Source: a virus
Direction: 5' to 3' (one strand)
DNA length: 25,557 nt
Virus record (IMG/VR): IMGVR_UViG_3300037574_000149
Location: 1 to 25,557 of that record
The notes under the pieces were generated by a model. The model saw only the letters and a list, made by a program, of their open reading frames with translations. It did no database searches and had not been told where the DNA came from. Positions 1,979 to 19,267 of this stretch are shown in pieces (position 1 is the first letter of the stretch; each line of letters opens with the position of its first letter). Both the position numbers and the translations under genes were made by a program.

Positions 1979-3679
1979 CTAGTGTTTGAACCATCTGGGA
2001 GCTCCGGCTGGCTCCAGCCCAAGCTCAATATAATGAGCTCGTAACCGTTCTTCTGACTGTCTTTCTCGCTGACGTTCAGCCGAGACTGCTTGATCTTGAT
2101 TGAGGACATCGGTCCATTGCTTGACGCACATGGCCAAGGCCTCGACTTCGTCCTCATGTCGCAGGCAGTTACGGTCCCTGGTGATGGTCACCATCTGCCT
2201 TTGAAGTTCTTGGTTCATGGCCACGTCAGGGTGCATGATCAGGCGGTGCTGATTCATCACGGGCTCTAGAGACTGTATTATTCTGACTTCCTTTTGCCCA
2301 CTCGTGTGGACACCGTCTATCGACGCCCCCCAGCCATCTGGTAAATCTTCTGTGTCTCCCCGTCGAACAAGGTGCTTCATTATCACAGGCTCTATGAGAG
2401 AGACAAACATGTCCATTCCGAAGTTGCTTTCTACGAAGATTTCTCGAACCATGTGTTTTTTTGCCAGCGCGACTAGGTGTTCCAGCACGTCTGGAGAATA
2501 GCCACCATCTAGCCCACCAACATCTTTTACGAACAAGTTTCCGTTTAGATGTGAGACTATCGCGTATGCGGTTTTGTCGGCGCCTCTCCCGGCCGGATCG
2601 ATCCACATCTTGCTTCCCGTGTATTTTCCCCAATCTTTCGAATACATGATTGGCGAGTAGAAGCCATCCGTTCCAAACCCAAGCGATGGGATTTCTTCGC
2701 ACCGTGTCGTTCCTCCTCTATCATTTGTCTGTCCCCATGTAATGGTTAATGGTGCCTCTTCGCGAGCCACCGGGAATATGATTAGATCTTTCAGTTGCAG
2801 TGGGTACTGGACTCCACCACCGAGGTGTGTCAGCATCATGTACTGCATCATGAACGTGGAGCGTCCTTCGGAGGCCTCACGCTCTGTCAGCTCGTCAGTT
2901 GTGAATCTTTCTGGCCATACAGGCTCTCCGGGCTCCTCGCCGTCTCCGAGCCTCTGAGCCAGCTCTGGGGCAAGGTCATCAGTGAGCTCATCCGCTGTTG
3001 GCAGTCGGCATGGCCAACACCTAAAGGCGTAGCCAGCATCGACTAGCTTGTCATAGAGTGATTCTTTATGGTGAGGTGTACCGAGCATGATAATGTCGCC
3101 GCCAGGAATGAGAATGTTCTCGAATTCTTTTACTTGCTCTCGCAGGCGGTCGCGCATTTCTATAGTTAGTGTGTTCTCGGAAGTCTCACAGTCATCGCCA
3201 AGGATGATGGTCGCTCGTCGTCCAGTGATTTGGCCAGTGACTGATGCCGCCGCGAAAGATGGTGTTCGATCATTTTCAGCTGGGCCGACATCGAACATGA
3301 CAGCGCTATCGCGTTGACCGCCTCGTCTGTCTGGGCTGAGATGTTGGAGCCATGGAACCTGAGAGATCCATCGCCGAATCATGAACAATGAGTCCTTCGA
3401 GTTTTTCTCCGATTTGGAAACAAGGAGGATTCTCTCGTTGGGATTCACGAACAATCGCCACAGGCAGTAAGCCAGCGTAACCCAAGTTTTCGACGCTCCA
3501 CGGAATGCCCGTACTCCACGTCTCCGTGGTCCATCCTGTAGCCAATGTCCTATCTCCTTTTGGTGTAGGGCAAATGCTGGGAGCCCAATCTCTTGCCACA
3601 GCTCCTCGCCGAAGAACGAAAAGTCTTCAGCCAGCCTGCTGATATAAACTTCTAGCTGTTTGTTTTTATCTACTGGCAT
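1979..3679 (-). CDS. terL: Terminase large subunit (T7 gp19-like)
   Basis: ATP-driven DNA packaging motor and headful/concatemer nuclease acting at the portal. At 566 aa it is close to T7 gp19 (586). The Walker A region is AFRGASKTW (residues 58-66), matching the AFRGxxK[ST] form of T7-like terminases. Walker B is TIILGDD (157-163), with the following ETSENT and the coupling motif MLGTPHHKESLY as in T7. The C-terminal RNase H-like nuclease shows D361 in IDPAGRGADKTAYA, an acidic VESNFG strand, and HEDEVEAL near residue 510 for the last metal ligand. The start at 3679 has AGGAAG seven bases upstream and overlaps the end of the phosphoesterase gene by 10 bases. TerS lies three genes upstream. 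Confidence 0.95.
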   Translation of the reverse strand: MPVDKNKQLEVYISRLAEDFSFFGEELWQEIGLPAFALHQKEIGHWLQDGPRRRGVRAFRGASKTWVTLAYCLWRLFVNPNERILLVSKSEKNSKDSLFMIRRWISQVPWLQHLSPDRRGGQRDSAVMFDVGPAENDRTPSFAAASVTGQITGRRATIILGDDCETSENTLTIEMRDRLREQVKEFENILIPGGDIIMLGTPHHKESLYDKLVDAGYAFRCWPCRLPTADELTDDLAPELAQRLGDGEEPGEPVWPERFTTDELTEREASEGRSTFMMQYMMLTHLGGGVQYPLQLKDLIIFPVAREEAPLTITWGQTNDRGGTTRCEEIPSLGFGTDGFYSPIMYSKDWGKYTGSKMWIDPAGRGADKTAYAIVSHLNGNLFVKDVGGLDGGYSPDVLEHLVALAKKHMVREIFVESNFGMDMFVSLIEPVIMKHLVRRGDTEDLPDGWGASIDGVHTSGQKEVRIIQSLEPVMNQHRLIMHPDVAMNQELQRQMVTITRDRNCLRHEDEVEALAMCVKQWTDVLNQDQAVSAERQRERQSEERLRAHYIELGLEPAGAPRWFKH

Positions 3680-4383
3680 ACGCGCTTCCTGCTAAATTTA
3701 GATTTGTGGTATTTTTCTCCCCGCGCGATGGGCATTATTTCATGGTATGGAATGCCGTCCATGACAACGCCAGCTGCAAGGATTGGCTTGCTGATCATAT
3801 TCTTCCCGTATGCCATTGCAGGGTGACTCACGTCAACTCCACAGCCTACATCCATTCCGAAGATCCGCATGTTTGGTCCACACGCCCATCTCACGCCAGC
3901 AACTGAATGCACATGACCAATGACGGTTGATTGCATGGATTTTAATGCGGCGTTGATGGCTGGAGTCTTTCCTCCAATGCCAGTGCCGTGAAAATAATGT
4001 ACATCATCTAGTTCAATTTCTCGAACCCAATTCCACTTCGGCGTGTTCCAAACTACGCTGTAGTCTGTGATGAACCGAGCAGGAATGTTAACGCTGGCCG
4101 CTAATCGGTAGACTCTCTCGTCATGGTTTCCAATCATAACGTCAGCTTTTGGAAACGCTTTAACCCACCGTTGTATTCTCTTGGTGGTTTGGTCCGCTTC
4201 GCGAGTGGCACTATCGGCGTCTACGTTACGCATATGGAAACTAATATTGTGATGGTCTACAATGTCACCGATGAACAATACGCGATTGCAGTTCCAGGTT
4301 TCGTAAAGATCTTTGCAAAACTTTAAATATCCAGGGTGAGTCGCTGGCTCGTGGACATCCCCGATTACCAGTATTCGACTCAT
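3670..4383 (-). CDS. Calcineurin-like metallophosphoesterase, 237 aa
   Basis: A complete set of two-metal phosphoesterase motifs is present in order: GDVHEP (D9, H11), GDIVDHH (39-45), GNHDE (85-89), FHGTG (H132) and GHVHS (156-160). The family hydrolyses phosphomono- or diesters with Mn/Fe/Zn; members include protein phosphatases, nucleotidases and DNA-repair nucleases, and the substrate here cannot be deduced. There is no signal peptide, so it is probably cytoplasmic. It begins in a TAATG overlap with the preceding gene, with a very strong ribosome site (AGGAGGAAGGA), and overlaps TerL at its end. Placement between TerS and TerL suggests a link to packaging, DNA ends or nucleotide turnover late in infection, but that is only context. 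Confidence 0.9.
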   Translation of the reverse strand: MSRILVIGDVHEPATHPGYLKFCKDLYETWNCNRVLFIGDIVDHHNISFHMRNVDADSATREADQTTKRIQRWVKAFPKADVMIGNHDERVYRLAASVNIPARFITDYSVVWNTPKWNWVREIELDDVHYFHGTGIGGKTPAINAALKSMQSTVIGHVHSVAGVRWACGPNMRIFGMDVGCGVDVSHPAMAYGKNMISKPILAAGVVMDGIPYHEIMPIARGEKYHKSKFSRKRVCQ

Positions 4384-4703: not shown

Positions 4704-4956
4704 CTGTGTCGTCTAACGATGGAAGATTCATGCCACGTTTTCGCCACTCCTCTACTATGTTTGCAACTGGGCTATCCCCCGTTGCAGTTGTCGTGATGCC
4801 GCAGTCTTTTAGACGTTGGCGTATTACATTTAGGTCCGCTGCGGTTGCCTCGATTCGGACAGACTCGCCTTCTTTGGTAAGCGTCTCCCTACCTTCTCGT
4901 AATATTTTTAAAAGTTGCTGATCATAAAGGTCGGCAATATCATCTAAGTTTGTCAT
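4684..4956 (-). CDS. terS: Terminase small subunit (T7 gp18-like), 90 aa
   Basis: Probable DNA-recognition subunit that forms a ring and loads TerL on concatemeric DNA. At 90 aa it matches T7 gp18 (89 aa). The central segment with IEATAADLNVIRQRLKDCGI fits the 'adLnviRqfLkdngI' helix pattern typical of these proteins, preceded by an N-terminal helical stretch (LYDQQLLKILREGR) and followed by an acidic tail (SLDDTDDAATA) that could contact TerL. The ATG overlaps the stop of the giant core gene in an ATGA junction. Position immediately after the gp16-like gene and upstream of TerL is the T7 order. Identification rests on size, pattern and place rather than on catalytic residues. Confidence 0.8.
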   Translation of the reverse strand: MTNLDDIADLYDQQLLKILREGRETLTKEGESVRIEATAADLNVIRQRLKDCGITTTATGDSPVANIVEEWRKRGMNLPSLDDTDDAATA

Positions 4957-7900
4957 GGTGTAGCCCCTAGAAGTTTTAATCGTTCCATTTCATCCGTCAT
5001 CCGTTTCACGGCACTCGAGTCACCGCCAAGTGCCTCGATGGCACCAGGAAGATCACGAGCCATCTCGTCATAATCTAGCTGATTGCTGATCATTTGCCAC
5101 TCTGGTGACTCTTCCCTTGCTTGGTCCATTGCCGACGTGTTATAGTTAGAGATGGTATCTCGCACAAACATCTGTTGGTCGGTGATCCCGGATCTTGGAT
5201 CGGCGTCAACCTTGCCGTCACTGATATACATGCTGTGCATTTTACCACCGGGAAGTAGATATGACTCAAGTGTTTCCCTTAATGTCATCTCCTTTGTCGT
5301 CCCGTCTGGAAATGCTTGGGCCATTTTTATTTGAGATACCAAGGATCTTCCGTAGTGGTAAACAGACCAATCGTAGTGGTCTGGTCCGGCAACATTACTT
5401 AGGTCTACACCATCATACATGCGCGATGGCGCCCTGAATGGGTAGCTCAATTTTTCCAGCTCTTGGAGTACTGGGTCTGTTGTCACGGACTGTATTCGAA
5501 CTGGCGAGATAACATTGAGTGGAATCATCCACCAGCCATCTTGTGTCTTGTGTCTATAAATAAGTTCGCCAAGAACTGAGTATTTTGGAGGCGCCTCGCC
5601 GCCACCCCACAAAGTCGTCGCTCTGACATTGTCCACGAGTTTTCTAGTGTCTCGAACAATAGGGTCAGTCGCGTAACTCATGGTTCGTTGCAGAGAGTTC
5701 CAGGGAATAAGTGTTCCGAGGAACTGCTTCTTCCATGTGTTAATCGTTGAGGATTCCGGGTCAGGGTCGGCGAACATGTCAGTAATCGCGGTTAATGATT
5801 TAATGTACATCTTCTCATCGAGCTGTTTTGTGAGGGCGTAGACAAGTGTGGTCATGATATCTGACTGCTGCTCTTGGGTCATGTCTGGGTTTGCCTCCAT
5901 GACCTCAAATGCGTCTGCGACAACTGCAAGAACTGTTGCAAACGGATCGATCTTTCTGAATTGCAACCGCTTGCCACCTATTTTTAACGAGTACGGCATG
6001 CCGCCATTGGCTTCCCATGTTTTTCTCATATCAGGATCTGTTGGTCCAGCGCCCTGGATCATATCGTTTTCATACCAGTACCAGGCAAGGCCAATCAGAG
6101 CCAGACCAGTTGCCTGTCGTCCACGCGCTTCGGCCATTCGTCGAGGATCTCCGCTTTGAAGATCTTCCATGTGCTTGCGGTGGAATCGCCAGAGCTCGGC
6201 ATCTTTCGGTAGCCCATAGGTGCGGCTGTTATTCGCCAAAGCATTTGTCCGTCGTGTGTGTAGGGCCTTCTCGGCTGGCGTAGCCTTGTCTATCCAATCA
6301 TCACCGTACTTACTCACGAGCATCTCTTCAACAGCAGCAAGACGTTGTTCGAATTCTGGTTTTCGACCGCCCAGAAGGTTCTGTAATTTTTGAGCATGTT
6401 CGGTTATGTGTGTAGTCGGCGACATGCCAAACGCTCTGTTCATGAGGTTCATAGGTGTTCTATAGAACGGTATGATAATTCTTCCGACACCCCATGTACT
6501 TTGATCTAAGACTTTTTGGAATGCTGCTTGGTTTGGTCCAAGGTCGCCCTGGAACACGGGGCGAGTCGCGTAGTCTTGAACGTGTTCAATCATTTCACTG
6601 TGTCGCGTTGTCATCGTGTCGTTGACGTGCTGGGAGATTGCGAGCGCTCGTTCATAATCATCAGGGATTGCAGCAATCTTTGGGTCGTTCATTCCCTCGT
6701 GGATCAGTGTCTGCTCATTACGAAGGTGACCATCTTTGATGGTGTTTCGCAATTCAGTGTCAACCATTTCAGACACTTGACCATGCAACTTTCTTTTGTA
6801 TGCTGCAATCTCGTACCTGTTTGCGTTGGGTGAAAGAGTGCCATTCTCAACCGCCAACTTAACCTGTTGGCTCATGATGTCTTTGTACGACTTTTCAGCC
6901 AGCGCTGTGCGCCCTGCCATTTGTCTAAAGAACTCATCGATTGTCATAATCGCTCTACTAGGGTGTCGAACCATAAGGTCGCCGATGATGTGGTTAAGTA
7001 TAAATTTGCCAGCTTGACCAGCAAAGCTATCTGGCTCCGCGTCGGTCCATACAGCTCTACGTGCGTACCTAGAGTCGTTCAGCTCTCTACCAGGCATGAG
7101 CTGGCCTTCACCTTTCGCCAGGGTTTTTAGAGCATACTTTAAAGCGTGGCCCATATTGCCAAAGTTGCTGATGAAGTTCTTGGCAACTTGCGCCATCATC
7201 GCTGTGTCGCCACGAGAAGCTGCACCAAGGAAGGTGCCTGCTCCTTCAACAAGCATGGTTATGATCGGGCTGCCAGCGGCAAGACCTGTGTAGGTCGATG
7301 GTCCTGACAGTAGCCAGTTTGTGTAGACCTCTTGAATGACTCCCCGGAACTTGCTTCCGAGGTGTTTGTTTGTATTTTTTACAACTTCTGAAATTAATCC
7401 GAGATCATCTAAGTCTCCTGGATTAAGTCCTCGAATAGTATTCGTCATATCTTGAACAGAGCCAGCGTCACGGCCCAGGCTTTCTAAGAAGTCGTGTGCC
7501 TTTGCTGCGTCTGCAAGTTCTGACGCGGTCGGTAACTTCTTTGGTAATCCCCAGGCGTGAAGTTCCTGCCCGTGTTGAGTGCGTTTCATTTGCGCCATTA
7601 CAGCAACGAATTGATACTCGATGAACGCCCGTTGTAGTCTTGCTTTTGCAACTACAGAGCCAGTTTCGTCTACTTCCCTCCCCAGGGCTTGAAGCTTCTT
7701 GAGTCTAGCCTGTAGCATGAAATTGGCGATCCATACTTTCTTTGCTCCCTCGCCAGGGTTTCTATCATTAACTAGCATGATCTCTGCCATTTGGTGTTCT
7801 ATTGGAACGTCATGTACCGCCCCCAAGCGTCCGTACATCTTGATCGCGTCGCGCATAATCTGATCATCAGTTAATTTTGGTAGTATGTCCTCGTCCATTA

Positions 7901-10900
7901 GAGTTCGGACAAGGTCGCCATACGCCGCAGCGGTCTTGAGTATCTCGTCTGGGTCGTCTGGTTTGATTCCAAATGTAGATCTTTCAGGATCCAACCCTGG
8001 GTTCAATCCCGACCTACCCGGATTCTTATCTAATAGCTTTGGATCACGCATTCTCGCGGTGCCTAGTATGTCACCTTCTACGATCATGTCTTGAATGCTT
8101 TCGCCTTTAGCAATTCCAGATTTAACTCTGGCGGTTGCTGACTCCCAAGAGATCGCTGGCATGTACTTTCCTGGCGCGTATCGAATAGGCAAATCCGTCC
8201 GCGACATTAGACCGCTAAAGAACTTGGCAACTTGTGGATCAATCTTTCCTTCAATTGGCGAGCCCTTGACGTCTCTGTACAGATCCCGCATTTGTGCTGC
8301 TAATTCGCCAAGCGATTCGCGTTGGCCAGCTGACATGCCTTCTGGGTTAGCAATGAACTGTTCCATTCCATCGGCGAACCGTTCCATGGCAGCCTTATCC
8401 CAGTTGCCGTCGATAACGCCGAAAGCGTCTTCCATCGCCTTGAGAGATTTTTTATCCCCTCTGGCTAATAGTTGTGCGTGTAGTGCGTGACTTAGTTCGT
8501 GAACTGCGGTCGATGCATCAGGAGATGTTAATCCTCTGATGAAGGCGACGCCGGACTCGGTGTCGATGAGGGCTTCGCCTCGTTCGTCTTGTCGGAGCCG
8601 CTGCTCCCCACTCCGTCGATCAGTACCCGGAACTCCTTCATCGAGTTCTCGGACTCCTGTAGTTCCAGACGGCGCTTCAGGTACTTCGTGCCAGGGTGAT
8701 CTGGGCCATGTTTCTTGAGGCTGTATTGGTGTAGGTGTTCTATCATTGCTTAATATCCTATCATAATCGTCGGGTCTTAGGGTGACTGTGTCAAATGCTT
8801 CTGTTTCAGCCCTTGCTACTACGTCTAATTCGGCCAATTCGTTCCTTAACTCATAAAATTCTTCGAACTTTCTTTCCATATGTGCCGTAGCATCGTCGGT
8901 TTTTCCAATAAGTCCGCTTGCTGCGTCGTCGAATTCTGGTACGTAGATTGTTCGAATGCCGATAATCTTTTCACCGCCAGCACGAGTAGCTCCACGTTCA
9001 GCTTCACTTATTGTCTGAGCTCCGAGCCCCTTGGATTTAAGGAACTCTAAGATGTGTCCAACCTCTTCAAGTGAAACAGCATCATCAAAGTACACTTCAA
9101 CGCCTGGTCTGGCGTTGGGGTTACTCTTGAGAATGTTTCCTTCTGAAGCAGGGTTAAGTACTTTACTAACCATGACAGCGTCTTGACTACCGTCTTTGCC
9201 TATCTGAGCAGCAGTGCGAAGAGCGGAACTAAAGTCTGGAACTTGGTCCGTTACGGACACTGTCTTGAATTTAGGCTTTCCTTTTGAATCAAGAATAGGT
9301 TTTCCGTCAGCGTCAACTTGTGGAGCCTTGGCTGGCTTTTGAGTGTTTGAGTATGTGACCTCAATGTGTAATGAGGCTTCGCCTTCTCCAGCCCAAATCC
9401 CATGGTTCTCGCCAATGCTGAACGCAGTTGCGGTTGGGTCGTCGCTAAGGATTGTGCGAGCTGTTGTCTGCGCCGCTTCAACTTTTACTGGGTCTTGCGT
9501 TGACATCCTGATCGGCTCTCTGCCTGCACCTATTGGAACGTCTACTATTGGCATTTCAGGTCGAGAAACGCTTGTGCCCATGACAACTCGTTGTGGAGCG
9601 ATAAGGTCTGACTCTAGGTCGAACGAGCCACCTTCGCCATCAAGGTTTGTCCAATTCTTCTTTGTCCATTTTTCTTTTTCCATGAACCAGCCAACTGCCT
9701 GGAGATCGTCTGCTTCCATCCCTAGACGTCTTGCTGCGTTCTCAAAGACTTCTTGTCCAAACCCCATAGCAGAACCAGCTGTATCTTTTGTTGGGTCGGT
9801 GCCTTTGATGAAACTGCCTGGTACAGCTCCCTCAGCGGTTGGTGGAATAGCCTTGCGGCCAGAGAGTCTTTCCAAAAATCGAGCAGCCCAAACATCAATG
9901 GTCGCTTGGTTGTCACGTCCTAAAAGATTTGCTGCAAAGTTTACAGCTTTTACGCCTTTACCCTGCACACCCTTTCTTGTGTGATACCAATGACCCGTCA
10001 ACGTGTCCATAGCGTTGGCGGTATTAAAGCCAAACTTTGTAAAGCCTTTGTCTGCGAGATCTTTAACTGATGAGTCTACTAAGCCATCTTTTCCAATAAC
10101 TTTATTGCCTGCCTCAACCCATTGTTTATACGTACCGCCAGCTTGGCGATGCTTTCCGTATGCCTCAAGGACGTCGTCAAATGCGCCGCGTGTGTAGTGG
10201 TGCATGACATTGGTCATGTTTGCGAAGTTTGCACGAACCTTTGTTTGTGGGCTTAGAGCGCCAAGTAGTTCTCCTACAAGATCTCTGTAAACTCCCCACT
10301 CTCTTCCGAGCCTCTGTCGCATAGTGGCGTACCAATTTGCGTGACCAAGAATGGTTTTGGCAACTTCATCGCCAGCTTCCGCTCGTGCTCGTATCTCAAG
10401 AACCTCTGCTTCTAGCTTTCCACCCAAGTCTCGAACACGTCGTTGTCGCTGTGGACTACCGACCGGGTAGATTTTACCATCTCTGTTTTGATGGAATGTA
10501 TATGGCTTTGATTTATAGTTTACTTCCAGAACCGCGTTGCCGTCTTTGTCAACAACAGGCTTTCCATCTTTAGTTTTTTGTTTGATGGATGCAATTTCAA
10601 GAGCTTGCCATTCGCTTTGTGGGTGCCTCGCTTGTGCCTTCGCAATCTGTGTTTTTAAACTATTGCTAGTTTCTTCATCTAGACCGTGAACACTTATCGC
10701 ATCGTCAACAACTTGGCTATCATTTTTGCTAAGTTTTGCAACAGCCGTTGTTCTCTCGCCTCGTTCTGTTCCCATGACACGCGCATCTTGGTGTAAGACT
10801 TGTTCTCTTTGGGTCTTAATTCGTGTACGTAGTTTTTCGGGATCATGAAATGATTTCGGTAGTGTGAACCCTCGATCTGAAGCGACTGCCCATTCTTCTA

Positions 10901-12569
10901 TGTATTTATGGAACTCATCTACATTTTGTATGGTTACTACCTGTCCATCTTCAGTGAATCTTATTCCGTGTTCCGCAGCGTCCCTGCGAAGGGTACCTTG
11001 TCCATTTATGTATTCAAAGAATTTTCTTTCTGATGGGGTTAGGCTTTCTAACATGCTTTCGCCAACCTTTAATGGCCGACCGCTTGGAGTTTGTATTTGT
11101 CTCTGTCTCTGATGTAAGACTTGCGTAGTTTTAACGCCTGATTCATCTACAGTTATTACGATATTACCCGCAAGGTCTATTTCCGATGTTGCGCCCTTCC
11201 CGCCGACAAAAACTCTTTTAAAGTCCATGTCGCCCATCATCATGCCGCGAACAGTTTCTTCCGCTGCTTCCATGCTGATATCAAATTCGTGAGATATCAA
11301 GACCGACATGGCAGGAATTAAATCTTCTTCAAGTACAGTGTCCATTCCAAGTCCAGCCTTTTGAAGCCTTCCCGGAATCTCACTTAGTGGAACACCCTCG
11401 GACAAAAGGTCTTTAGCCGCCTTGTTCCTTGCAACCCAGATCCTGCCTGCTTGATCTAGTCTTTTGGTTTGACTAGGGCTTAGTCCCATTTCCTTTACTG
11501 CGACACCAATTTGGCCTTTAAGATCTCTCGCAGAGCGTCCTACGAACCCGATTCCACGAAGAAAGACGTCAGCGAAGACACCTACTGGCGCTCCCTCTGT
11601 CGCCACCATAAACCTGGCTGTTAAGAATTGTCCGTTTTCGGCATAGCTTCTTGCGCCCATGTTTTGTGTCCACCAATTGTCATATCCAGCATCGGCGAAC
11701 AGGTCTGTCATGTTTCCCTTGATGGGATCCCACGCAACAATGTCAGCGGCAAAGCCAGCAACAGCTGCTTGGCCCACGGCTTTTCCTGCGTTCACGACGT
11801 GACCCGTTTTTGTTGTAGTTTTTGTTACAGTGTTCGCTGTAAATCGACGGCCAACGACCCCGCCGCCTTGCCTAACTTTACTAATCTTTGAACTAACTCC
11901 AACAAAGGGAATCATAAATCCTGTCATAAATTCAACAAGGTCTGTGGTGGACAGATCTATATCGTCCCACTCTGAATTGAAATAGCTCAGTGGAATTGGT
12001 ATGTGACCCCAGGCGCCTGGCATGGGATTTGGACCAAGTTGTTTTTGTACATCAATACGGAATACATCGTTGATCGTCTTCCCGTCACGACCGAATGGAA
12101 GTGCTACCACCTCCACTCCAAGATTCCATGTTTGGGCGAGTACATTTGCCGTACCTCTAAACAATGGACCGACAAGATGACCGCCAGGTAGTTCGTCAGT
12201 TCGTCTTAGCTTCCCAAATAATCCGTAGTCGCCAAAAATAAATGCGTCACCCATGCCAAAAATTTCTTCTACCACTGTTGGCTCTGTCTCTTGTGCACCC
12301 AAGCTGAACTCGCGTTCTGGATCTTTGCTATGATCTTCAAACTCTTGCTTAGTCATTCCAGCGATCTTGCCAGTTGCTATTGTTGATCCAGGTGGTGGTG
12401 TCGCTTGCGGCGGTGGGTTTCTATTCTCAATTTCTAGTTCTGGTGTTCCCAACTTGCCTTTTAAGTGCGCCTCAAGCTCTTCCTGAAGTTCTGGGTCAAC
12501 GGCTGCGTGTGGGTTTTGCTCGCTTCCTGGTCCAAATTCTTCTGATAGAATGTCTTGTTCTTGTGGCAT
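4953..12569 (-). CDS. Giant internal/ejection protein (gp16-like position) with gluzincin metallopeptidase domain, 2538 aa
   Basis: At 2538 aa it is nearly twice T7 gp16 (1318 aa) and occupies the same place, after the gp15-like gene and before TerS. Regions in order: acidic/proline-rich N-terminus (1-60); Gly/Ala-rich region with hydrophobic helices (about 100-340); a conserved-looking alpha domain starting GHANWYATMRQRLG at 742 and reaching about 1000 (contains LLGALSPQTKVRANF); an alpha/beta stretch (about 1040-1230); a Pro/Arg/Glu-rich linker (1277-1339); a zincin-like domain with HELSH (H1357, E1358, H1361) and ERFAD (E1396, D1400), the HExxH plus ExxxD gluzincin pattern; a membrane-active-looking segment (TNWLLSGPST, W1752); and a C-terminal region near 2155-2330 with GAGPTDPDMRKTW and PYSLKIGG, a pattern I associate with giant phage ejection proteins. 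No T7-type transglycosylase motif is seen. A ribosome site overlaps the preceding stop. Expected role: ejection into the envelope at DNA entry, with the protease as a virion-borne activity. Confidence 0.85.
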   Translation of the reverse strand: MPQEQDILSEEFGPGSEQNPHAAVDPELQEELEAHLKGKLGTPELEIENRNPPPQATPPPGSTIATGKIAGMTKQEFEDHSKDPEREFSLGAQETEPTVVEEIFGMGDAFIFGDYGLFGKLRRTDELPGGHLVGPLFRGTANVLAQTWNLGVEVVALPFGRDGKTINDVFRIDVQKQLGPNPMPGAWGHIPIPLSYFNSEWDDIDLSTTDLVEFMTGFMIPFVGVSSKISKVRQGGGVVGRRFTANTVTKTTTKTGHVVNAGKAVGQAAVAGFAADIVAWDPIKGNMTDLFADAGYDNWWTQNMGARSYAENGQFLTARFMVATEGAPVGVFADVFLRGIGFVGRSARDLKGQIGVAVKEMGLSPSQTKRLDQAGRIWVARNKAAKDLLSEGVPLSEIPGRLQKAGLGMDTVLEEDLIPAMSVLISHEFDISMEAAEETVRGMMMGDMDFKRVFVGGKGATSEIDLAGNIVITVDESGVKTTQVLHQRQRQIQTPSGRPLKVGESMLESLTPSERKFFEYINGQGTLRRDAAEHGIRFTEDGQVVTIQNVDEFHKYIEEWAVASDRGFTLPKSFHDPEKLRTRIKTQREQVLHQDARVMGTERGERTTAVAKLSKNDSQVVDDAISVHGLDEETSNSLKTQIAKAQARHPQSEWQALEIASIKQKTKDGKPVVDKDGNAVLEVNYKSKPYTFHQNRDGKIYPVGSPQRQRRVRDLGGKLEAEVLEIRARAEAGDEVAKTILGHANWYATMRQRLGREWGVYRDLVGELLGALSPQTKVRANFANMTNVMHHYTRGAFDDVLEAYGKHRQAGGTYKQWVEAGNKVIGKDGLVDSSVKDLADKGFTKFGFNTANAMDTLTGHWYHTRKGVQGKGVKAVNFAANLLGRDNQATIDVWAARFLERLSGRKAIPPTAEGAVPGSFIKGTDPTKDTAGSAMGFGQEVFENAARRLGMEADDLQAVGWFMEKEKWTKKNWTNLDGEGGSFDLESDLIAPQRVVMGTSVSRPEMPIVDVPIGAGREPIRMSTQDPVKVEAAQTTARTILSDDPTATAFSIGENHGIWAGEGEASLHIEVTYSNTQKPAKAPQVDADGKPILDSKGKPKFKTVSVTDQVPDFSSALRTAAQIGKDGSQDAVMVSKVLNPASEGNILKSNPNARPGVEVYFDDAVSLEEVGHILEFLKSKGLGAQTISEAERGATRAGGEKIIGIRTIYVPEFDDAASGLIGKTDDATAHMERKFEEFYELRNELAELDVVARAETEAFDTVTLRPDDYDRILSNDRTPTPIQPQETWPRSPWHEVPEAPSGTTGVRELDEGVPGTDRRSGEQRLRQDERGEALIDTESGVAFIRGLTSPDASTAVHELSHALHAQLLARGDKKSLKAMEDAFGVIDGNWDKAAMERFADGMEQFIANPEGMSAGQRESLGELAAQMRDLYRDVKGSPIEGKIDPQVAKFFSGLMSRTDLPIRYAPGKYMPAISWESATARVKSGIAKGESIQDMIVEGDILGTARMRDPKLLDKNPGRSGLNPGLDPERSTFGIKPDDPDEILKTAAAYGDLVRTLMDEDILPKLTDDQIMRDAIKMYGRLGAVHDVPIEHQMAEIMLVNDRNPGEGAKKVWIANFMLQARLKKLQALGREVDETGSVVAKARLQRAFIEYQFVAVMAQMKRTQHGQELHAWGLPKKLPTASELADAAKAHDFLESLGRDAGSVQDMTNTIRGLNPGDLDDLGLISEVVKNTNKHLGSKFRGVIQEVYTNWLLSGPSTYTGLAAGSPIITMLVEGAGTFLGAASRGDTAMMAQVAKNFISNFGNMGHALKYALKTLAKGEGQLMPGRELNDSRYARRAVWTDAEPDSFAGQAGKFILNHIIGDLMVRHPSRAIMTIDEFFRQMAGRTALAEKSYKDIMSQQVKLAVENGTLSPNANRYEIAAYKRKLHGQVSEMVDTELRNTIKDGHLRNEQTLIHEGMNDPKIAAIPDDYERALAISQHVNDTMTTRHSEMIEHVQDYATRPVFQGDLGPNQAAFQKVLDQSTWGVGRIIIPFYRTPMNLMNRAFGMSPTTHITEHAQKLQNLLGGRKPEFEQRLAAVEEMLVSKYGDDWIDKATPAEKALHTRRTNALANNSRTYGLPKDAELWRFHRKHMEDLQSGDPRRMAEARGRQATGLALIGLAWYWYENDMIQGAGPTDPDMRKTWEANGGMPYSLKIGGKRLQFRKIDPFATVLAVVADAFEVMEANPDMTQEQQSDIMTTLVYALTKQLDEKMYIKSLTAITDMFADPDPESSTINTWKKQFLGTLIPWNSLQRTMSYATDPIVRDTRKLVDNVRATTLWGGGEAPPKYSVLGELIYRHKTQDGWWMIPLNVISPVRIQSVTTDPVLQELEKLSYPFRAPSRMYDGVDLSNVAGPDHYDWSVYHYGRSLVSQIKMAQAFPDGTTKEMTLRETLESYLLPGGKMHSMYISDGKVDADPRSGITDQQMFVRDTISNYNTSAMDQAREESPEWQMISNQLDYDEMARDLPGAIEALGGDSSAVKRMTDEMERLKLLGATP

Positions 12570-12577
12570 ATGTATTC

Positions 12578-14545
12578 CTATTTAGTTTCTTTCGGTGACC
12601 ATTGATTACCGCGTCTATATGCGGACGGGTCTTTAGTTATGTCGTACATCGGCACCTTGCTCATATCTTCAGTGCCTAGATATAAATCCGCGAGACGAAT
12701 GATTTCCGCAGTTCGTGCTGTCAAATAAGCGTTCGGATCCGTTTCTTTAAGAAGTAGGCTTGCTGGATCCGTAATCCATTTTCGCCAATCACCACGAAGT
12801 TGAGCTTCGAGTTTCATCCAATCTCTATCCGACCCTGGGGCAGCGTCTTTTGGCATGGCCCATAACATTCGTTGCCCGGAAGCGGTACCAGGCATCATCG
12901 GCTCGGCTCCAGCCGCTCGCCAGTATGCGTTGTAAACTTGATCGAACAATCCCATAGCCTCTGGCGAGAACTTGTCGTCCTCGTAACTAGTCTCAAGCGT
13001 GTTCATGCGCCACAGCGTGTTGGCCTGTGCAATGGTTAGATCGCCTTTGTCAAGAGATTTAATAATCTTATCCCCGACACCGCGTCGTTTTGCAACATTG
13101 CTGGTTTTGATTTGTGTCATAAAATCAGCGTATACTTCCTCGTTGCCTGCCGAATCACCCTGAAGGCCTGTTATCTTCTTATTAAGTTCCATCATCTCAA
13201 GCGCAAAGTCGTTGCCTAGATTATATGTACTTCGTAAATAATCACTCATTGCATCTGGTGTGGTTATCGTCTGATCGTTCCCGTCTGCGCCTTTTACCAC
13301 TACTTGCTTATCTAATAAGTACGCAAGACTTAGTTGTCTCGCTTCAGTTCGTTCCGCACTGTCTCTTGCTATTTGCAGACGCTGCTGCTCATACTCGTCA
13401 GGCAGCTTCTCAATTAAATCATTTATTGCGTCTCTCGCATGCGAATGTCTTGGGAACAGCAGGACTCCATTTCCATCAGTTTGGTTTCTAAATCTTTTTA
13501 AAAACTGGTCTTTCTTGCCAATAGACAAGTGAGATTCCAGGAGGCTATTCTCAAGCGTGGACGCAAGTCTTGATGCTGCCGCTTGACTGTCTCGTGGGTC
13601 TGATGTCGCTGCCACGAGATTGTTTTCTACTTGTTCATTCATTACCCAGGTTGTAATGGTGCCCCCAGTTAGTTCAGTAAGCGCCACGGAAAGATCAGCC
13701 ATCGCACTTTCTCTTCGGCCCTCAATGAGCTTAGTATCAAGACCAATTCTGCCAGAGTAATTCTCTGGCAATCTTTTCATTAGCTTTTCGGCACGATCAT
13801 ATAGGCCAGCCTCTGTAGCTTTTTGGATTGCTGTAACATTTATACCAAGGGTGTATATTTCTTTTCTGTCTGGGTTAACGCCAGGCGCTTCAAGCGCCTC
13901 TTCGTATAAGGCTTGCCCTGATTTTAATTCATTGTCTGAAGCAAAAACGAGATCATAGACAACGCCATCTGTGTAGACTAACTTGCGCTCTTGATCGTAT
14001 CTATCGTAGTATGCTCTAAAGCCAGCCGCCGTTCCTTCATAAAAGGAGTTCATGTAAGCGTTAATTTCCATTTGGCTTACGTCATCGTTGGCAATGAGAT
14101 GCCCCTCTTCATCCTGCTCTACGCCTAATGTTTCAGCGGCAATACCAGTTGTGATATAGTGTGCGGCATCACCCACGTTACCTGTCTTTTCCACGAGTGC
14201 AAAGAATTCTTCTTCGAGCGACGTATCGTCCTCATTTTCCTTAGTTCTCGCCTCTCCAGTTTCGAGGTCATTAAGATAATGCTCGCGGTCTTCTGATCCG
14301 TCTTGTCTAAACCAACCCAAGTTTGCGCTGGCGTCACCCTTAACGCTCGACATTATTGACTTCGTAGATTTGCCAGCGGTGTCAAGTAAATTTAACACTT
14401 GCTTCAGCTCTTGATTAGGAACGTAGACGCCAGCGTTTGGTAGGTTCAACACGCTCGGCGTATACACATTCAGTTTTTGAGCTGATTGCGGTAAATAGCC
14501 GCTGTCCAATGTTGGGGTTTTTGGGGTTACTTTTCTTTTTGCCAT
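12578..14545 (-). CDS. Internal core protein (gp15-like), 655 aa
   Basis: Assigned mainly by place and character: between gp14-like and gp16-like genes, 655 aa against 747 for T7 gp15, largely helical, hydrophilic and acidic, no signal peptide. The start is set at ATG 14545 (MAKRKVTPKTPTLDSGYLPQ), in a TAATG overlap with the upstream stop; a longer version to 14572 would overlap the gp14-like gene by 28 bases. N-terminal basic residues and a proline-rich stretch precede a long helical body; no catalytic motif is visible. In T7, gp15 stacks with gp14 and gp16 inside the capsid on the portal and forms a periplasmic tube during ejection. I infer the same role. Direct sequence similarity to T7 gp15 is not evident to me. 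Confidence 0.7.
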   Translation of the reverse strand: MAKRKVTPKTPTLDSGYLPQSAQKLNVYTPSVLNLPNAGVYVPNQELKQVLNLLDTAGKSTKSIMSSVKGDASANLGWFRQDGSEDREHYLNDLETGEARTKENEDDTSLEEEFFALVEKTGNVGDAAHYITTGIAAETLGVEQDEEGHLIANDDVSQMEINAYMNSFYEGTAAGFRAYYDRYDQERKLVYTDGVVYDLVFASDNELKSGQALYEEALEAPGVNPDRKEIYTLGINVTAIQKATEAGLYDRAEKLMKRLPENYSGRIGLDTKLIEGRRESAMADLSVALTELTGGTITTWVMNEQVENNLVAATSDPRDSQAAASRLASTLENSLLESHLSIGKKDQFLKRFRNQTDGNGVLLFPRHSHARDAINDLIEKLPDEYEQQRLQIARDSAERTEARQLSLAYLLDKQVVVKGADGNDQTITTPDAMSDYLRSTYNLGNDFALEMMELNKKITGLQGDSAGNEEVYADFMTQIKTSNVAKRRGVGDKIIKSLDKGDLTIAQANTLWRMNTLETSYEDDKFSPEAMGLFDQVYNAYWRAAGAEPMMPGTASGQRMLWAMPKDAAPGSDRDWMKLEAQLRGDWRKWITDPASLLLKETDPNAYLTARTAEIIRLADLYLGTEDMSKVPMYDITKDPSAYRRGNQWSPKETK

Positions 14546-15108
14546 TATGTAGTGTCCACCAATCCAGACCATGACATTGGTCCGCTACCACCTTGCACAG
14601 ATCGTTGAATTCCAAGTCCTGTTGAAAGGCCAGAGATGCCACCAGTTAATCCGGCGAGCATGGTGTTCTGTCCCTGTGACAATGCTTGATTTATATTATT
14701 CTCATAATTCGCCATGTTCTCAAGATTCATGTTCTTGTAGTCAAGGTTCATCATTTGCATCCTGTTTGCAGTGTTCGTATTTAAGATGCCAAGGTTTTGC
14801 GCTTCGTCAATATCAGCCTGCTTTACAATTCTCGCCCCTGATCCAGAGCCAGTTGAAAGACCACCAGCTGCCTGAGCAACCCGAATCTTTCCACGAACTT
14901 CAGACGCTCGTCTCATAGTTTTCAGCGTCTCAGCGTCACGGGCCGCTAGTGTTTGTTTTTGCATAATCCCTCGACGTTCGATGATTGACTCTCGTCTCAT
15001 TTCTGCATACTTTTTATTTGTATACATTGACCTCGCGACGGCTTTGTTCTGCTGTTTAGCTGCCATCATCGATGTCACGGCGCCTAGCGCCATCATCTCT
15101 ACGCCCAT
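14545..15108 (-). CDS. Internal virion protein (gp14-like), 187 aa
   Basis: Matches T7 gp14 in length (187 against 196 aa), place (first gene after the nozzle) and composition: a small hydrophobic N-terminus (MMALGAVTSMM), a strongly basic helical section rich in Arg, Lys and Gln (about residues 18-75), a Gly/Ser hinge (GGLSTGSGSG), an Asn/Met-rich helix (LDYKNMNLENMANYENN) and a Gly-rich C-terminus. In T7 gp14 is ejected first and forms the outer-membrane channel. The start ATG at 15108 has CGGAG upstream, just after the nozzle stop at 15112. No membrane span is strong, in keeping with a protein stored in the capsid and inserted later. Confidence 0.75.
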   Translation of the reverse strand: MGVEMMALGAVTSMMAAKQQNKAVARSMYTNKKYAEMRRESIIERRGIMQKQTLAARDAETLKTMRRASEVRGKIRVAQAAGGLSTGSGSGARIVKQADIDEAQNLGILNTNTANRMQMMNLDYKNMNLENMANYENNINQALSQGQNTMLAGLTGGISGLSTGLGIQRSVQGGSGPMSWSGLVDTT

Positions 15109-15111
15109 GAG

Positions 15112-17598
15112 TTACTCCGTTGTGGTTGTGTGTTCACCGTGATATTCCAAAGATGTCCATATGCATGGCCTTGGGTCGGTGCTTGTTAGTTTAAAGGTTA
15201 AGTTCTCTGCGTTACCGTGCGCCCAGAATGCTTGCTCCCCATAAGTATCAATTTTACCCTCCGCTGCTGCGAAAGTTACTAATCTTGTTGTGCTTGTATC
15301 TTGGGAATCGGTCACGGAAAGATCATACGACCCCGCGTCTCGGTGCTCGGCAATTAATTTCTTAATAGCAGTACGTCCGTCAACTACGGCCTTGCCATCG
15401 TTGTCCCTCATGAACACTTTGCTCAATGTTAGTTCGGCTGTAAAGGCACGACCAAAGATGGGCTTCGCCAGCGCCCACTCGGTAGCATCGGCTTCTATGG
15501 CAAACGTAGCGGAAGCGTCAAAGCCATTAGAGGCCATAGTCACTGTTACGTGTTTACTAGTTGTGGGATTCACTGCTGTGTCTATATTGGTGTCGGCATA
15601 AGAAGCTCCGACAGCGTCTGACAGATCCCATTCTACGGTCCATGTAGGGTCAGTGAAAGTTTTTGTACCAGTTCTTTCTGCTGTTACCCGGTGATCAAGA
15701 TGTGTAGTGTACTCTCCAGCGTCTTTTGGCTCTGACCCAGAGGTGTCTATTTTGTCTACAAACAATCGCGTGGTGCTGACAACTCCAACCGTGTGTGTTT
15801 CTTTTCTTAGTAAGTAAAGGTCGGTATCAATAAGAGCCGCGTCCATAAATGCGTCGGTGTCAAAGTCCCACTGTCCCCATGCAGATTGTTTGCGTTCTTG
15901 ACCCTGTGTGTATGATTGGTACACATACAATTTAGCAGCTTGGTAGTCTACAATAGATGATCTTGCGCTTGATGCGTCTGCGGCATAATCATCAAATTCA
16001 ACGTAGTCGCCAGTGGCGATGATCGCATTGTCATATGACCTCGGCGAGCCGTCCACCGTCCAAGTACTTGACGCTGACCATTGAGCATACGCGCTGGGTG
16101 AGCCACCGCCGTCAGAGGTGAAGGTGGATCCACTGACGTCACCCTCTAGTGTGGGCATCACATACAGTGTTTCTGTGTTTGTGCATGCAACCATGTTCAC
16201 AATGACGGGTGGAACGTAGTTATGTACGTGCCGGGTAACATCCGCAGCCTTGTTTGAGACTGCCATGTCATCATAAAAGTATTCGTAAATAACGGAGTAT
16301 CGCTGACCACCGCCAGGAAAATAGAGCCTGTCGCCAATGGCCACGGGCCGAACCTGTTGTGTTTCATATCTCGTACTCGCCGTCACTGATGTCGTGCTTG
16401 GAGTGAGCGGTTCGCCTTGCGTTGAAAGTTCAAACTGCTGGCCTGCTCTTGTCATAATCAAGACAGATTGTCTAAACGGAACAACGTAGTCAACGAGTGT
16501 AATATCGGTGGCTGCCAACTGCGCTTCGATTGGGTCAGAGTCAACGATGAACGCTGAGTCGTCTAGGTAGTAGTTAAATAAATCGTCTGAAGCAGAGAAG
16601 ACAACATACTCGTCGCTAGCCAGAACCATTCTGTTGTTGTAGTAGCCAATGTCGGTAATCGGTAAGGCATCTCTAATAAATTGTGGCGCCGGATTTTGAT
16701 CGTCGTGACCCCGGCCAATGGCAAGTGCAATGGAGCCATATCCCGACGCCTTGCCAAATTGTAATATTTTGTTTGCCTCAATGTCTGGGCTGATTCGGAC
16801 GAACATTCGTTTGTGGTCTATTGGTCCACCAGTACAAATGATCTTTCCATAAGGAAATGCCTTCATCCCAACAATTGCGTCATCGTAGTCTTCTGGAGAT
16901 TTCCCATTTCCCTGTAGCGCCTCTTGCACGTCTGTAGAACTTGCGTTGCCTTGTATCCATGCCGACCACTCCCCCGTCCACTTACACTTTAGCCGCCACG
17001 TTTTCGCAGAAGTTCCGTTCCAGGCACCTGGTACCAGGCACTGCTCTTGAAAAGTTCTCGGCGTATAGCTAGAATATTTTATCGCCCAGGTAAATGGTGG
17101 CGACGAGTTAGTTCGCGCTAGCTTTACTGGCATCCTGGTGCTATCAATCTCATCCCCATCGGTGCCATAGACGTCCTTGACTCGTGTTGTCCGCTTTGTG
17201 TTGACAATAAAAGTAGCGTCAGCAATATTTTGGAATCGATAATCCCCAGATTCCGCGCCTCCAGCGCTTAGGTAGCTACCTGTTTGATTGCTTACACTAT
17301 TAAATTGATCGTTAAAAACATCATAAATTGAAACAATGCCACCATTTGTGTAAATGACCAAGAATTCAGTTATGTTATCTCGTTCTATTTTATGTAGTCT
17401 GTATTTTAGACCAGCGCTTATGCCACTAGAAAGGTAGTTCACAACTGTTGATCCAGGGCGTTTCCGAGCGCCGTCGATTACATTGAATGCTAAGTTCTTT
17501 GCTTCTTGTACTTGTCCTGGAAAGCGAATACTATCTGCCTGTCGGCTTACGCCGTGAATAAGCGAATTGATTCGTTGCACAAATGGTGAGCTTGGCAT
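15112..17598 (-). CDS. Tail tubular protein B / nozzle (gp12-like), 828 aa
   Basis: Forms the conical tip of the short tail below the gp11-like adaptor ring. The length (828 aa) is close to T7 gp12 (794). The N-terminus is diagnostic: FVQRINSLIHGVSRQADSIR then FPGQVQEAKN and GARKRPGSTVV correspond to the 'NLxGGISQQPDxxRxPxQ...GLxKRPP' opening of T7-like nozzle proteins. The rest is beta-strand rich with many Tyr, Asp, Thr and Ser, as expected for the propeller fold, including PFRQSVLIMTRAGQQFELS and, before it, an ADITLVDYVVPF strand. It starts six bases after the stop of the second gp11-like gene; the ribosome site is weak, so coupling is likely. Confidence 0.92.
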   Translation of the reverse strand: MPSSPFVQRINSLIHGVSRQADSIRFPGQVQEAKNLAFNVIDGARKRPGSTVVNYLSSGISAGLKYRLHKIERDNITEFLVIYTNGGIVSIYDVFNDQFNSVSNQTGSYLSAGGAESGDYRFQNIADATFIVNTKRTTRVKDVYGTDGDEIDSTRMPVKLARTNSSPPFTWAIKYSSYTPRTFQEQCLVPGAWNGTSAKTWRLKCKWTGEWSAWIQGNASSTDVQEALQGNGKSPEDYDDAIVGMKAFPYGKIICTGGPIDHKRMFVRISPDIEANKILQFGKASGYGSIALAIGRGHDDQNPAPQFIRDALPITDIGYYNNRMVLASDEYVVFSASDDLFNYYLDDSAFIVDSDPIEAQLAATDITLVDYVVPFRQSVLIMTRAGQQFELSTQGEPLTPSTTSVTASTRYETQQVRPVAIGDRLYFPGGGQRYSVIYEYFYDDMAVSNKAADVTRHVHNYVPPVIVNMVACTNTETLYVMPTLEGDVSGSTFTSDGGGSPSAYAQWSASSTWTVDGSPRSYDNAIIATGDYVEFDDYAADASSARSSIVDYQAAKLYVYQSYTQGQERKQSAWGQWDFDTDAFMDAALIDTDLYLLRKETHTVGVVSTTRLFVDKIDTSGSEPKDAGEYTTHLDHRVTAERTGTKTFTDPTWTVEWDLSDAVGASYADTNIDTAVNPTTSKHVTVTMASNGFDASATFAIEADATEWALAKPIFGRAFTAELTLSKVFMRDNDGKAVVDGRTAIKKLIAEHRDAGSYDLSVTDSQDTSTTRLVTFAAAEGKIDTYGEQAFWAHGNAENLTFKLTSTDPRPCIWTSLEYHGEHTTTTE

Positions 17599-17604
17599 GT
17601 TGTT

Positions 17605-18339
17605 TTACTTGCCTTCACTTTGTGATGGCTGGGATCCTCCCGGAATCATTGGTCTAATGTTCCAGTTCTGATCAAGCTCAGGTTTATTTCGCATCGCAAC
17701 GGCCTCCGCTTGCATGTACTCTTGGTTAAGAGTTGCATCGAGTTGTGGGTTACCTTGCATGCGTCGTTGGAATGTCATCTTCGCACGAGCAATAATTACG
17801 TCTTGTAAATGGAGTGGGAGGTAATCAAAGTCTAACTTTTCTGTAAGATCAGCAGTTATGTTCTCGGTGCTCGTTGCAGACGTTGAGCCGTGATTCGCGC
17901 CTTTCCTCATATCAAATGTACCTCGGTCAGCGTCGTACATGAAGGTGCCAGTGTAGTTGACATCACCTGACCCAGGATCAAAGATCCATGTCGATGGTCG
18001 TATCACTATGTTTCGATACGCGTCAGCGCCAGAGCCACGGATTTTTAGAACCTCTTCTGAAGTTGTAAACTGAACCCAACCGCCGCCAGACGGTGTAGTA
18101 GCGGACGCTACATCGTTGCCGTCCGTGGTCGTGTATGACACGGATTGTCGAGTATTCTCCGGCCAGCCCCACGCCTGGATCCTTCTGTTTTCTCTATCGA
18201 TGAACTGTTCCGCTCGGTAGTAAACCGAAGTCAAATCACTTTGGGCGCTAGGCTTAATGATCCCCGACATTGGAAACTCGAAAATCGTTTCGACTACTTC
18301 GTTGATGCCATCAACAAAAGTCATTCCCATTTGTGCCAT
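17605..18339 (-). CDS. Tail tubular protein A-like adaptor, second copy, 244 aa
   Basis: A gp11-type head-tail adaptor. The N-terminal helix reads YYRAEQFIDRENRRIQAWGW (residues 40-59), equivalent to the 'A-x-R-x-(I/L)-N-x-x-N-R-x-(I/V)-Q-S-R-G-W' helix of T7 gp11. The C-terminal helix pair FDYLPLHLQDVIIARAKMTF, then QRRMQGNPQLDATLN, matches the 'lPexlrryIaakAarxFqxrxxGdpel' pattern. Between them is a beta sandwich including IVIRPSTWIFDPGSGDVNYT. The tail is Pro/Gln/Ser-rich. T7 gp11 is 196 aa. The start at 18339 has AAGGAG upstream, overlapping the stop of the first gp11-like gene. Having two gp11-like genes in a row is unusual; this one keeps the more typical C-terminal helix and may be the true tail adaptor. 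Confidence 0.8.
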   Translation of the reverse strand: MAQMGMTFVDGINEVVETIFEFPMSGIIKPSAQSDLTSVYYRAEQFIDRENRRIQAWGWPENTRQSVSYTTTDGNDVASATTPSGGGWVQFTTSEEVLKIRGSGADAYRNIVIRPSTWIFDPGSGDVNYTGTFMYDADRGTFDMRKGANHGSTSATSTENITADLTEKLDFDYLPLHLQDVIIARAKMTFQRRMQGNPQLDATLNQEYMQAEAVAMRNKPELDQNWNIRPMIPGGSQPSQSEGK

Positions 18340-18352
18340 AATTGATTACTCC

Positions 18353-19267
18353 TTAATAGACGCTACGGTCTATAGTTCTTGGCCTGCCCCGTATTTGACG
18401 CATTTCTTGTGTGTTTAATAAGTTGGTGTCCGCAGCACGAATTTCTTCTTGCATCGCAGCGCTTCTTCTTGTTCTAACTTCCTCTTGCAACTCTGAGTCA
18501 CGGGGACGCGAGAACGAGGTGAGAAGGCTCGATTGAGCGTAGCTTGTATTTCGATTTAACGCCAACGCAGCGTCTGCAATTATCCAATCTTGGAAAGCTG
18601 GCGGTATGTCCACGTACTCGAATTGATACGTATATGTCATCTTAAATGTATCGCCAATTGCGAACGTATTATCGTCCACTTCGTACATGTACTCACCCCT
18701 GCGAATCAGGTTTTCGTTTATGTCTGAGTCGTCGGTGTCGATATGGTAAATATCATAAGCCAGTTGCGCGGTACCACCCGCGACGTATGTCGCGACATAC
18801 GCTGATCCATCAACGCCATCTAGCGAGAATGTATCGGCGTCAACCACAGTAATTGTGTGGATATACCCGGTAAGGTCATGCGTTGCCGCGACCCCACCAG
18901 CTGTTGCAATTAAACCGCTAAAGAACAGTCTGTCGCCAGTGACAACCCCGTGCCCAACACATGTAATCACAGATGGGTTAGCGGCTGAAATCCCGGAGAC
19001 AGCCCTTGTCGTTCCTAGTTCAAGCTTGTCTACGTGGACATATCCTATTCGAGGATCCGATAGTTGATCGTCTGCGGCAAGTGGCGTGACAGAAACAGCT
19101 ATCTTTCTGTTCCAGTTCCACCCTTGCGCCATTATGCTATTCGCAGCGTCATCGACCATTCGTTCGACTTGAGCATGCGTTGATGTGCCGCCTGTGTCTA
19201 GTGATGACACCCTGAGCTTGCCCATTCTTCGCAAGACTGCGTTTACTGCTTCAAGTTTGTTACCCAT
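18353..19267 (-). CDS. Tail tubular protein A-like adaptor with inserted beta domain, 304 aa
   Basis: The N-terminus KLEAVNAVLRRMGKLRVSSL and the helix reaching ANSIMAQGWNWNR (residues 42-54) match the 'LSAVNxILxxIGxxPVxxL...INRxIQSRGWTFN' opening of T7 gp11 closely. The C-terminal part, with DIPPAFQDWIIADAALAL then LNRN, matches the second conserved helix. Between them, residues about 88-170 form an inserted domain, ISAANPSVITCVGHGVVTGD...DADTFSLDGVDGSAY...VAGGTAQ, which follows the pattern of a beta module frequent in phage tail and fibre proteins, often labelled E1 FCCH-like. Without the insert the protein is about 220 aa, the usual gp11 size. It starts three bases after the preceding stop with only a weak ribosome site. 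It probably forms a ring under the portal, with the insert facing outwards. Confidence 0.85.
   Translation of the reverse strand: MGNKLEAVNAVLRRMGKLRVSSLDTGGTSTHAQVERMVDDAANSIMAQGWNWNRKIAVSVTPLAADDQLSDPRIGYVHVDKLELGTTRAVSGISAANPSVITCVGHGVVTGDRLFFSGLIATAGGVAATHDLTGYIHTITVVDADTFSLDGVDGSAYVATYVAGGTAQLAYDIYHIDTDDSDINENLIRRGEYMYEVDDNTFAIGDTFKMTYTYQFEYVDIPPAFQDWIIADAALALNRNTSYAQSSLLTSFSRPRDSELQEEVRTRRSAAMQEEIRAADTNLLNTQEMRQIRGRPRTIDRSVY

Follow-up and report, generated by a model that had tools for sequence, protein, structure and literature searches.

A giant protein encoded by a virus fragment, IMG/VR virus record IMGVR_UViG_3300037574_000149 (hereafter the window, a linear stretch of 25,557 bases that was analysed at its full length), contains at residues about 1331-1465 a genuine zincin-type metallopeptidase domain of an already known kind. 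The protein occupies the position of T7 gp16 among the virion genes, and the domain has a fixed place between a front module and a conserved gp16-type C-terminal core. It is this position of the zincin, rather than the zincin itself, that is the less expected result. The role that we tentatively favour, as a prediction, is that of a zinc peptidase that severs the front module from the ejection core at their border. It has been predicted for years that phages inject proteins containing zincins, whose role was never settled; a fixed place gives a concrete question, namely, whether the protein splits at that point, be it in the phage head or inside the cell. Because homologs are found in cultured phages, such as Caulobacter Jess A, Pseudomonas AF, and Bordetella BPP-1, this question is testable.

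The zincin-type domain and its family

By composition alone, a bare HExxH motif is weak evidence: 0.076 occurrences are expected in the giant protein, and HExxH appeared in 7.3% of shuffles of this protein, and in 1.0% together with ExxxD 20-50 residues further on. HExxH in this protein is real because it is conserved across the family, being present in 85 of the 87 domain hits in viral loci and followed 13-49 residues later by E-x-[FW]-A-x3-E in 84 of them. Relatives were collected by a profile search of viral contigs iterated with alignment A2, in which the best 80 of 149 were examined. The searches used peptide patterns that included HExxH or the E motif, and therefore the hits were split by the pattern able to find them. 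Viral hits that have only the E pattern carry HExxH in 46/47, the lone exception being truncated by the contig end, and those with only the HE pattern carry the E motif in 12/13. In bacterial genome contigs, 22 loci were found by the E pattern with the 66-sequence query set, and HExxH is kept at 20 of these, the remaining two being a locus with HExxxH and one that is split between frames; an earlier scan with a 4-sequence query set gave no locus, and a plasmid search gave no homolog of the domain. These pattern-split sets (46/47 viral, 20/22 bacterial) are the less biased measure of HExxH conservation; alignment A3, with 66 members, was built from HExxH-bearing hits, and its 66/66 for HExxH is partly by construction. 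The ratio of nonsynonymous to synonymous substitution rates (dN/dS) in the domain is 0.17 between the window and its closest homolog (Nei-Gojobori, a rough value from one pair), and the domain is under purifying selection. That HELSH arose by chance, for which the shuffles could be cited, is already refuted by this selection and by the invariance of HExxH in a large family, and we give it virtually no credence.

The residues invariant in A3 are H1357, E1358, H1361, E1396, E1403, and Y1431, with W1390 in 64/66, and the family motif is HExxH-x(13-49)-E[KR]FARGFE. From the invariance and the family pattern, H1357, H1361, and E1396 are predicted to hold zinc while E1358 would activate water; E1396 is more likely to be the third ligand than the residue at the Asp position of the CLCA_X family discussed below, and Y1431, as an invariant Tyr, is a possible transition-state residue. 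A first-pass annotation, made by a model from the sequence alone, had placed HELSH at 1357-1361 and ERFAD at 1396-1400, with E1396 35 residues past H1361, and had supposed that a discrete metallopeptidase domain may follow a Pro/Arg/Glu linker. These positions are correct, and a discrete zincin-type domain with H, E, H, and a downstream Glu is borne out by the invariance across 66 sequences, which includes the H1357 and E1358 that it had proposed to compare among homologs. Loss of HExxH from close homologs, which it had named as evidence against the domain, was not found: the closest homolog (L002, a 43.9-kb contig) keeps HELGH at 75% identity across the domain, and two others (L025 and L044) keep HExxH at about 50%. 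The linker, residues 1276-1330, is 15% P, 15% R, and 13% E, against 5.0%, 6.1%, and 6.9% in the whole protein, and its identity between the two closest homologs is just 60%. What did not hold is the gluzincin signature ExxxD, because E1396 is present in 66/66 but the position of D1400 is Asp in 1/66 and Arg in 56/66.

Variation within the motif was also seen. L016 and L021 keep HEMGH, L017 and L022 have HELGGH, and HExxxH variants (HELGGH, HEMSGH) occur in the otherwise typical members L017 (at about residue 1414 of its open reading frame, ORF), L091, and L094. L087 has two copies of the family in tandem, which span residues about 1185-1328 and about 1334-1474 in the ORF that begins at base 2; the first copy is without HExxH and is possibly a decayed duplicate.

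Scans of the domain in the window protein with Pfam, NCBIfam, and PHROGs gave no curated family above cut-off. When Pfam was run on the 66 members no family stood out, and those that two or more members matched, all below E 0.006, consist of known or suspected HExxH peptidases; the Peptidase M78 model (PF06114) was not reached, with a best E of 0.073 among the 66. A profile-profile comparison by hhalign aligned the family to M78 with an E of 8e-6 and to M3 with an E of 4.4e-7 (small alignments), similar to the 5e-7 for M78 against M3, and reversed-profile controls gave 0.16 and 0.0075. The alignment to M78 spans 81 columns and puts E1396-x-x-A on the M78 ExxA motif. PDB sequence searches with the domain gave chance hits only. 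A Colicin_D match (E 0.0019, residues 1381-1413) was rejected as chance because it is below cut-off, occurs in 1/66 members, and covers a helix that is conserved in the family itself. Among the PHROGs, phrog_9880, of unknown function, matches all 7 first members. Labels that mislead, among them 'crystallin beta/gamma motif' and 'lysis protein', would be corrected by a family model for the domain.

The AlphaFold2 (AF2) model of the domain has a predicted local distance difference test score (pLDDT) of 78 and a predicted template modelling score (pTM) of 0.74. In this model, of moderate confidence, two strands (9-13 and 20-24) and no N-terminal helix precede the HExxH helix (30-48, with HELSH inside), and a second helix (70-85) bears E1396 and E1403. 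Foldseek with the model in a viral structure library matched giant phage proteins, several of them labelled 'large polyvalent protein' or 'ART-PolyVal-like'; such matches are evidence as to family and not as to function.

Position of the domain and its proposed role

In zincin-less T7-like relatives (about ten contigs within L003-L014, some of them near-duplicates) the giant protein is represented by two genes, ORF1 for the front and ORF2 for the core. The window protein aligned by hhalign to the ORF1 set with an E of 7e-108, confidently from about residue 600 to 1275, and to the ORF2 set with an E of 5.9e-64, confidently from about 1500 to about 2350, and residues 1290-1500 have no confident counterpart in either set. 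Of the 30 ORFs that hold both the zincin and the gp16 C-domain, some of them from overlapping contigs, all have the zincin upstream, at a spacing of mostly 500-970 residues. Among 63 closed zincin ORFs, the distance from the end of the zincin to the C-terminus has a median of 1016 residues (interquartile range 880-1141) and the part ahead of the zincin ranges from 300 to 2695 residues. In L070 the gene stops about 200 residues past the zincin and the gp16 C-domain is in the next gene. Taken together, these arrangements put the zincin at a natural joint.

The zincin borders a variable, cargo-like front part on one side and on the other a gp16-type core of roughly 1000 residues that forms part of the DNA-ejection channel. 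We propose that it would cut close to this border, in its own chain or in that of a neighbouring copy, either during head assembly or after ejection, and that the cut would part front module and ejection core, matching the two-gene arrangement of the relatives. A wider generalization, that there is a class of short-tailed and related phages with a zincin at this border cutting cargo from core, by which the DNA ejectosome would mature or be released in a general step undescribed so far, appears to us doubtful.

Several points weigh against self-processing. We know of no cleavage site or product for any member of the domain family, and nothing on the cleavage of internal proteins in podoviruses was found in a literature search. 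The spacing is not universal because the zincin is followed by more than 2000 residues in both L042 and L050, and the fixed position could reflect mere recombination at a domain border. When the five HExxH columns were masked the M78 and M3 matches vanished (E 0.55 and 0.16), and therefore the link to other zincins depends on the active-site helix. A Foldseek fold search of the PDB with the domain model gave no solved zincin at E<=0.001. Lastly, the N4 virion RNA polymerase (vRNAP), with its own conserved HExxH in the C1 domain, is packaged unprocessed (PMC5512222).

Among the other roles, the one that survives best, though we consider it unlikely, is that of an effector that is carried for delivery only and whose substrate after ejection is a host protein, such as one of defence or of the envelope. 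Host-directed action is among the options offered for polyvalent zincins (PMC5512222), and the giant phage proteins that hold the domain come from many hosts and differ greatly in their front parts; however, its place beside the ejection core is fixed, its active-site motif hardly varies between hosts that are themselves very different, which is less expected in an arms race, and there is no candidate target. It is because of the position that processing is favoured over host action. Slightly less probable is that the domain binds metal in a structural role or for a reaction that is not the cleavage of peptides. The uncleaved N4 protein and the lack of a PDB fold match would fit such a domain, and HExxH is present in non-protease enzymes too, as the N4 structure paper notes (PMC12633501), but the general-base Glu, conserved in 66/66, would be needless for a merely structural zinc, and the spacing of the third ligand is M78-like.

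It had also been suggested in the first pass that the zincin takes over the wall-cutting job of T7 gp16, cleaving peptidoglycan cross-links at entry. The premise is correct in that Pfam finds no SLT or lysozyme domain in the giant protein and no lysozyme, SLT, or amidase domain in any of the gp14-, gp15-, and gp16-position proteins of the window, nor in gp15 and gp16 of several marine T7-like relatives. The suggestion itself is unsupported, and we regard it as highly improbable because the zincin coexists with wall hydrolases next door in some relatives and because the zincin-less T7-like gp16 of ProddE is likewise without a Pfam wall hydrolase, so that absence of a hydrolase does not track the zincin. 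Scanning of 26 gp15-position neighbours of zincin proteins showed SLT in three (including BPP-1 Bbp11), NlpC/P60 in two, GH19 in one, and an AmiA-like domain in one. The transglycosylase domain is specific to particular phages, and not every gp16-like protein has one (PMC8954989).

Features of the window and neighbouring genes

Table 1. Features of the giant protein and of the genes next to it, with positions in the window
Feature	Position	Strand	Basis
gp16-position ejection (internal virion) protein, 2538 amino acids	4953..12569	minus	single open frame; phrog_6651
gp16-type C-terminal core, conserved, residues about 1500-2420	5310..8072	minus	hhalign to ORF2
Zincin-type metallopeptidase domain, residues about 1331-1465	8175..8579	minus	66-domain profile A3, AF2 model, dN/dS
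Y1431, invariant Tyr	8277..8279	minus	66/66
E1403, second Glu of family motif	8361..8363	minus	invariant, 66/66
E1396, predicted third zinc ligand, helix after HExxH helix (ERFA; family E[KR]FARGFE)	8382..8384	minus	66/66
HELSH, residues 1357-1361, predicted zinc-binding and catalytic motif	8487..8501	minus	H, E, H invariant in A3
Pro/Arg/Glu-rich linker, residues 1276-1330	8580..8744	minus	composition
Front module, residues 638-1275, contains DUF7178 (745-899)	8745..10658	minus	hhalign to ORF1; PF23802
gp15-position protein, 664 amino acids	12578..14572	minus	no Pfam or PHROG match above threshold
gp14 homolog	14545..15108	minus	PF24072 T7_gp14, 35.2 bits
Nozzle (gp12) homolog	15112..17598	minus	PF25675, E 1.2e-87

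The late genes on the minus strand are, in order, those for the major capsid protein (phrog_267), two tail tubular proteins, the nozzle, gp14, the gp15-position protein, the giant protein, the small terminase, a metallophosphoesterase, and the large terminase. The extent of the giant gene and its gp16 position, both given in the first-pass annotation, are upheld, on the minus strand, by the single frame, by the order after the nozzle, gp14, and gp15-position genes, and by the match of the internal virion protein family phrog_6651 to residues 2146-2391 (E 6.6e-31). The giant protein is probably injected along with the phage DNA.

In the front module, PF23802 (DUF7178) scored 27.2 bits against a cut-off of 27. 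The part at 9600-10658, minus strand (residues 638-990), has about 35% identity and 41 invariant columns with stand-alone proteins of the zincin-less relatives. Structure prediction of the DUF7178 region gave a pLDDT of 71 and a pTM of 0.64; since a PDB fold search with this model gave no match, the front module is left unnamed.

Elsewhere on the minus strand, two adjacent genes (17605-18339 and 18353-19267) match the tail tubular family (PF17212 Tube / phrog_446) and look like a duplication of the gp11 tail-adaptor gene; L002 also has both. Between the capsid and tail genes, a location unusual for a T7-like phage, a 703-amino-acid protein (20427-22538) has no Pfam match and matches only phrog_31125 (E 0.0022). 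The metallophosphoesterase gene (PF00149) between the terminase genes is at 3670-4383. A partial gene at 3-620 matches PF25735 (phage L5 gp82, E 8e-9), and L016 and L021 have a weaker match to this family inside their giant proteins, a short way ahead of the zincin.

Comparison with known systems

The window protein shares with T7 gp16 (internal virion protein D) the gene order gp14-gp15-gp16 and the conserved C-terminal domain. T7 gp16 has 1318 amino acids (PMC8954989) and the window protein about twice that length; unlike T7 gp16, the latter has the zincin and DUF7178 and no transglycosylase domain that we could detect. Since the N-terminal transglycosylase is not there, likeness to gp16 is claimed for the position and the C-terminal core only. 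With Peptidase M78 (ImmA/IrrE) the domain shares the hhalign match and the ExxA column, but it misses the Pfam cut-off and the likeness depends on the HExxH columns.

Annotated phages with a related domain include Bordetella BPP-1 (Bbp10), Pseudomonas AF (gp16), and Caulobacter Jess A (gp39c), and in all three the zincin gene comes after the gp15-position gene, as in the window. Further related domains are found in Xanthomonas, Vibrio, Cobetia, Acinetobacter, and Leptolyngbya phages and in a contig, vir555, ascribed to Methanomicrobiales. The CLCA_X zincin family was seeded with, among others, residues 700-1000 of Bbp10 (Lenart et al. 2013, PMC3650047). Residues 780-927 of Bbp10 are recovered by the A3 profile with an E of 2.6e-34, that is, the domain is homologous to this seed region, and thus its family was noticed as early as 2013; the members of both are mostly phage and prophage proteins. 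Although related to one CLCA_X seed, the domain is not filed as CLCA_X because it departs from the consensus HExxHxxxD: at the Asp position there is A1365 in the window, Glu in Bbp10, and Arg in 42/66, and the invariant acids of the family (E1396 and E1403) are farther on, 13-49 residues past the second His.

Zincins are the commonest domain of polyvalent proteins, and autoprocessing has been proposed for them, with P1 DdrB, which undergoes processing ahead of packaging, as a precedent (Iyer et al. 2017, PMC5512222). The text of that paper names neither BPP-1 nor T7-like gp16 proteins, and its metallopeptidases (MPTases), exemplified by P1 DdrB and N4 vRNAP, have an N-terminal helix and a three-stranded sheet before the HExxH helix, whereas the model of the window domain, of moderate confidence, shows two strands and no such helix. 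The likeness to the zincins of large polyvalent phage proteins that was pointed out in the first pass is sustained by the arrangement of helices and Glu and by location. The domain has the HExxH in the active-site helix, a variable insert, and then a conserved helix with the ligand Glu (AF2 model and 66/66); HExxxH variants occur in both; and, like the polyvalent MPTases, it is in the middle of a giant multidomain protein encoded among virion genes, here between the gp15-position and terminase genes.

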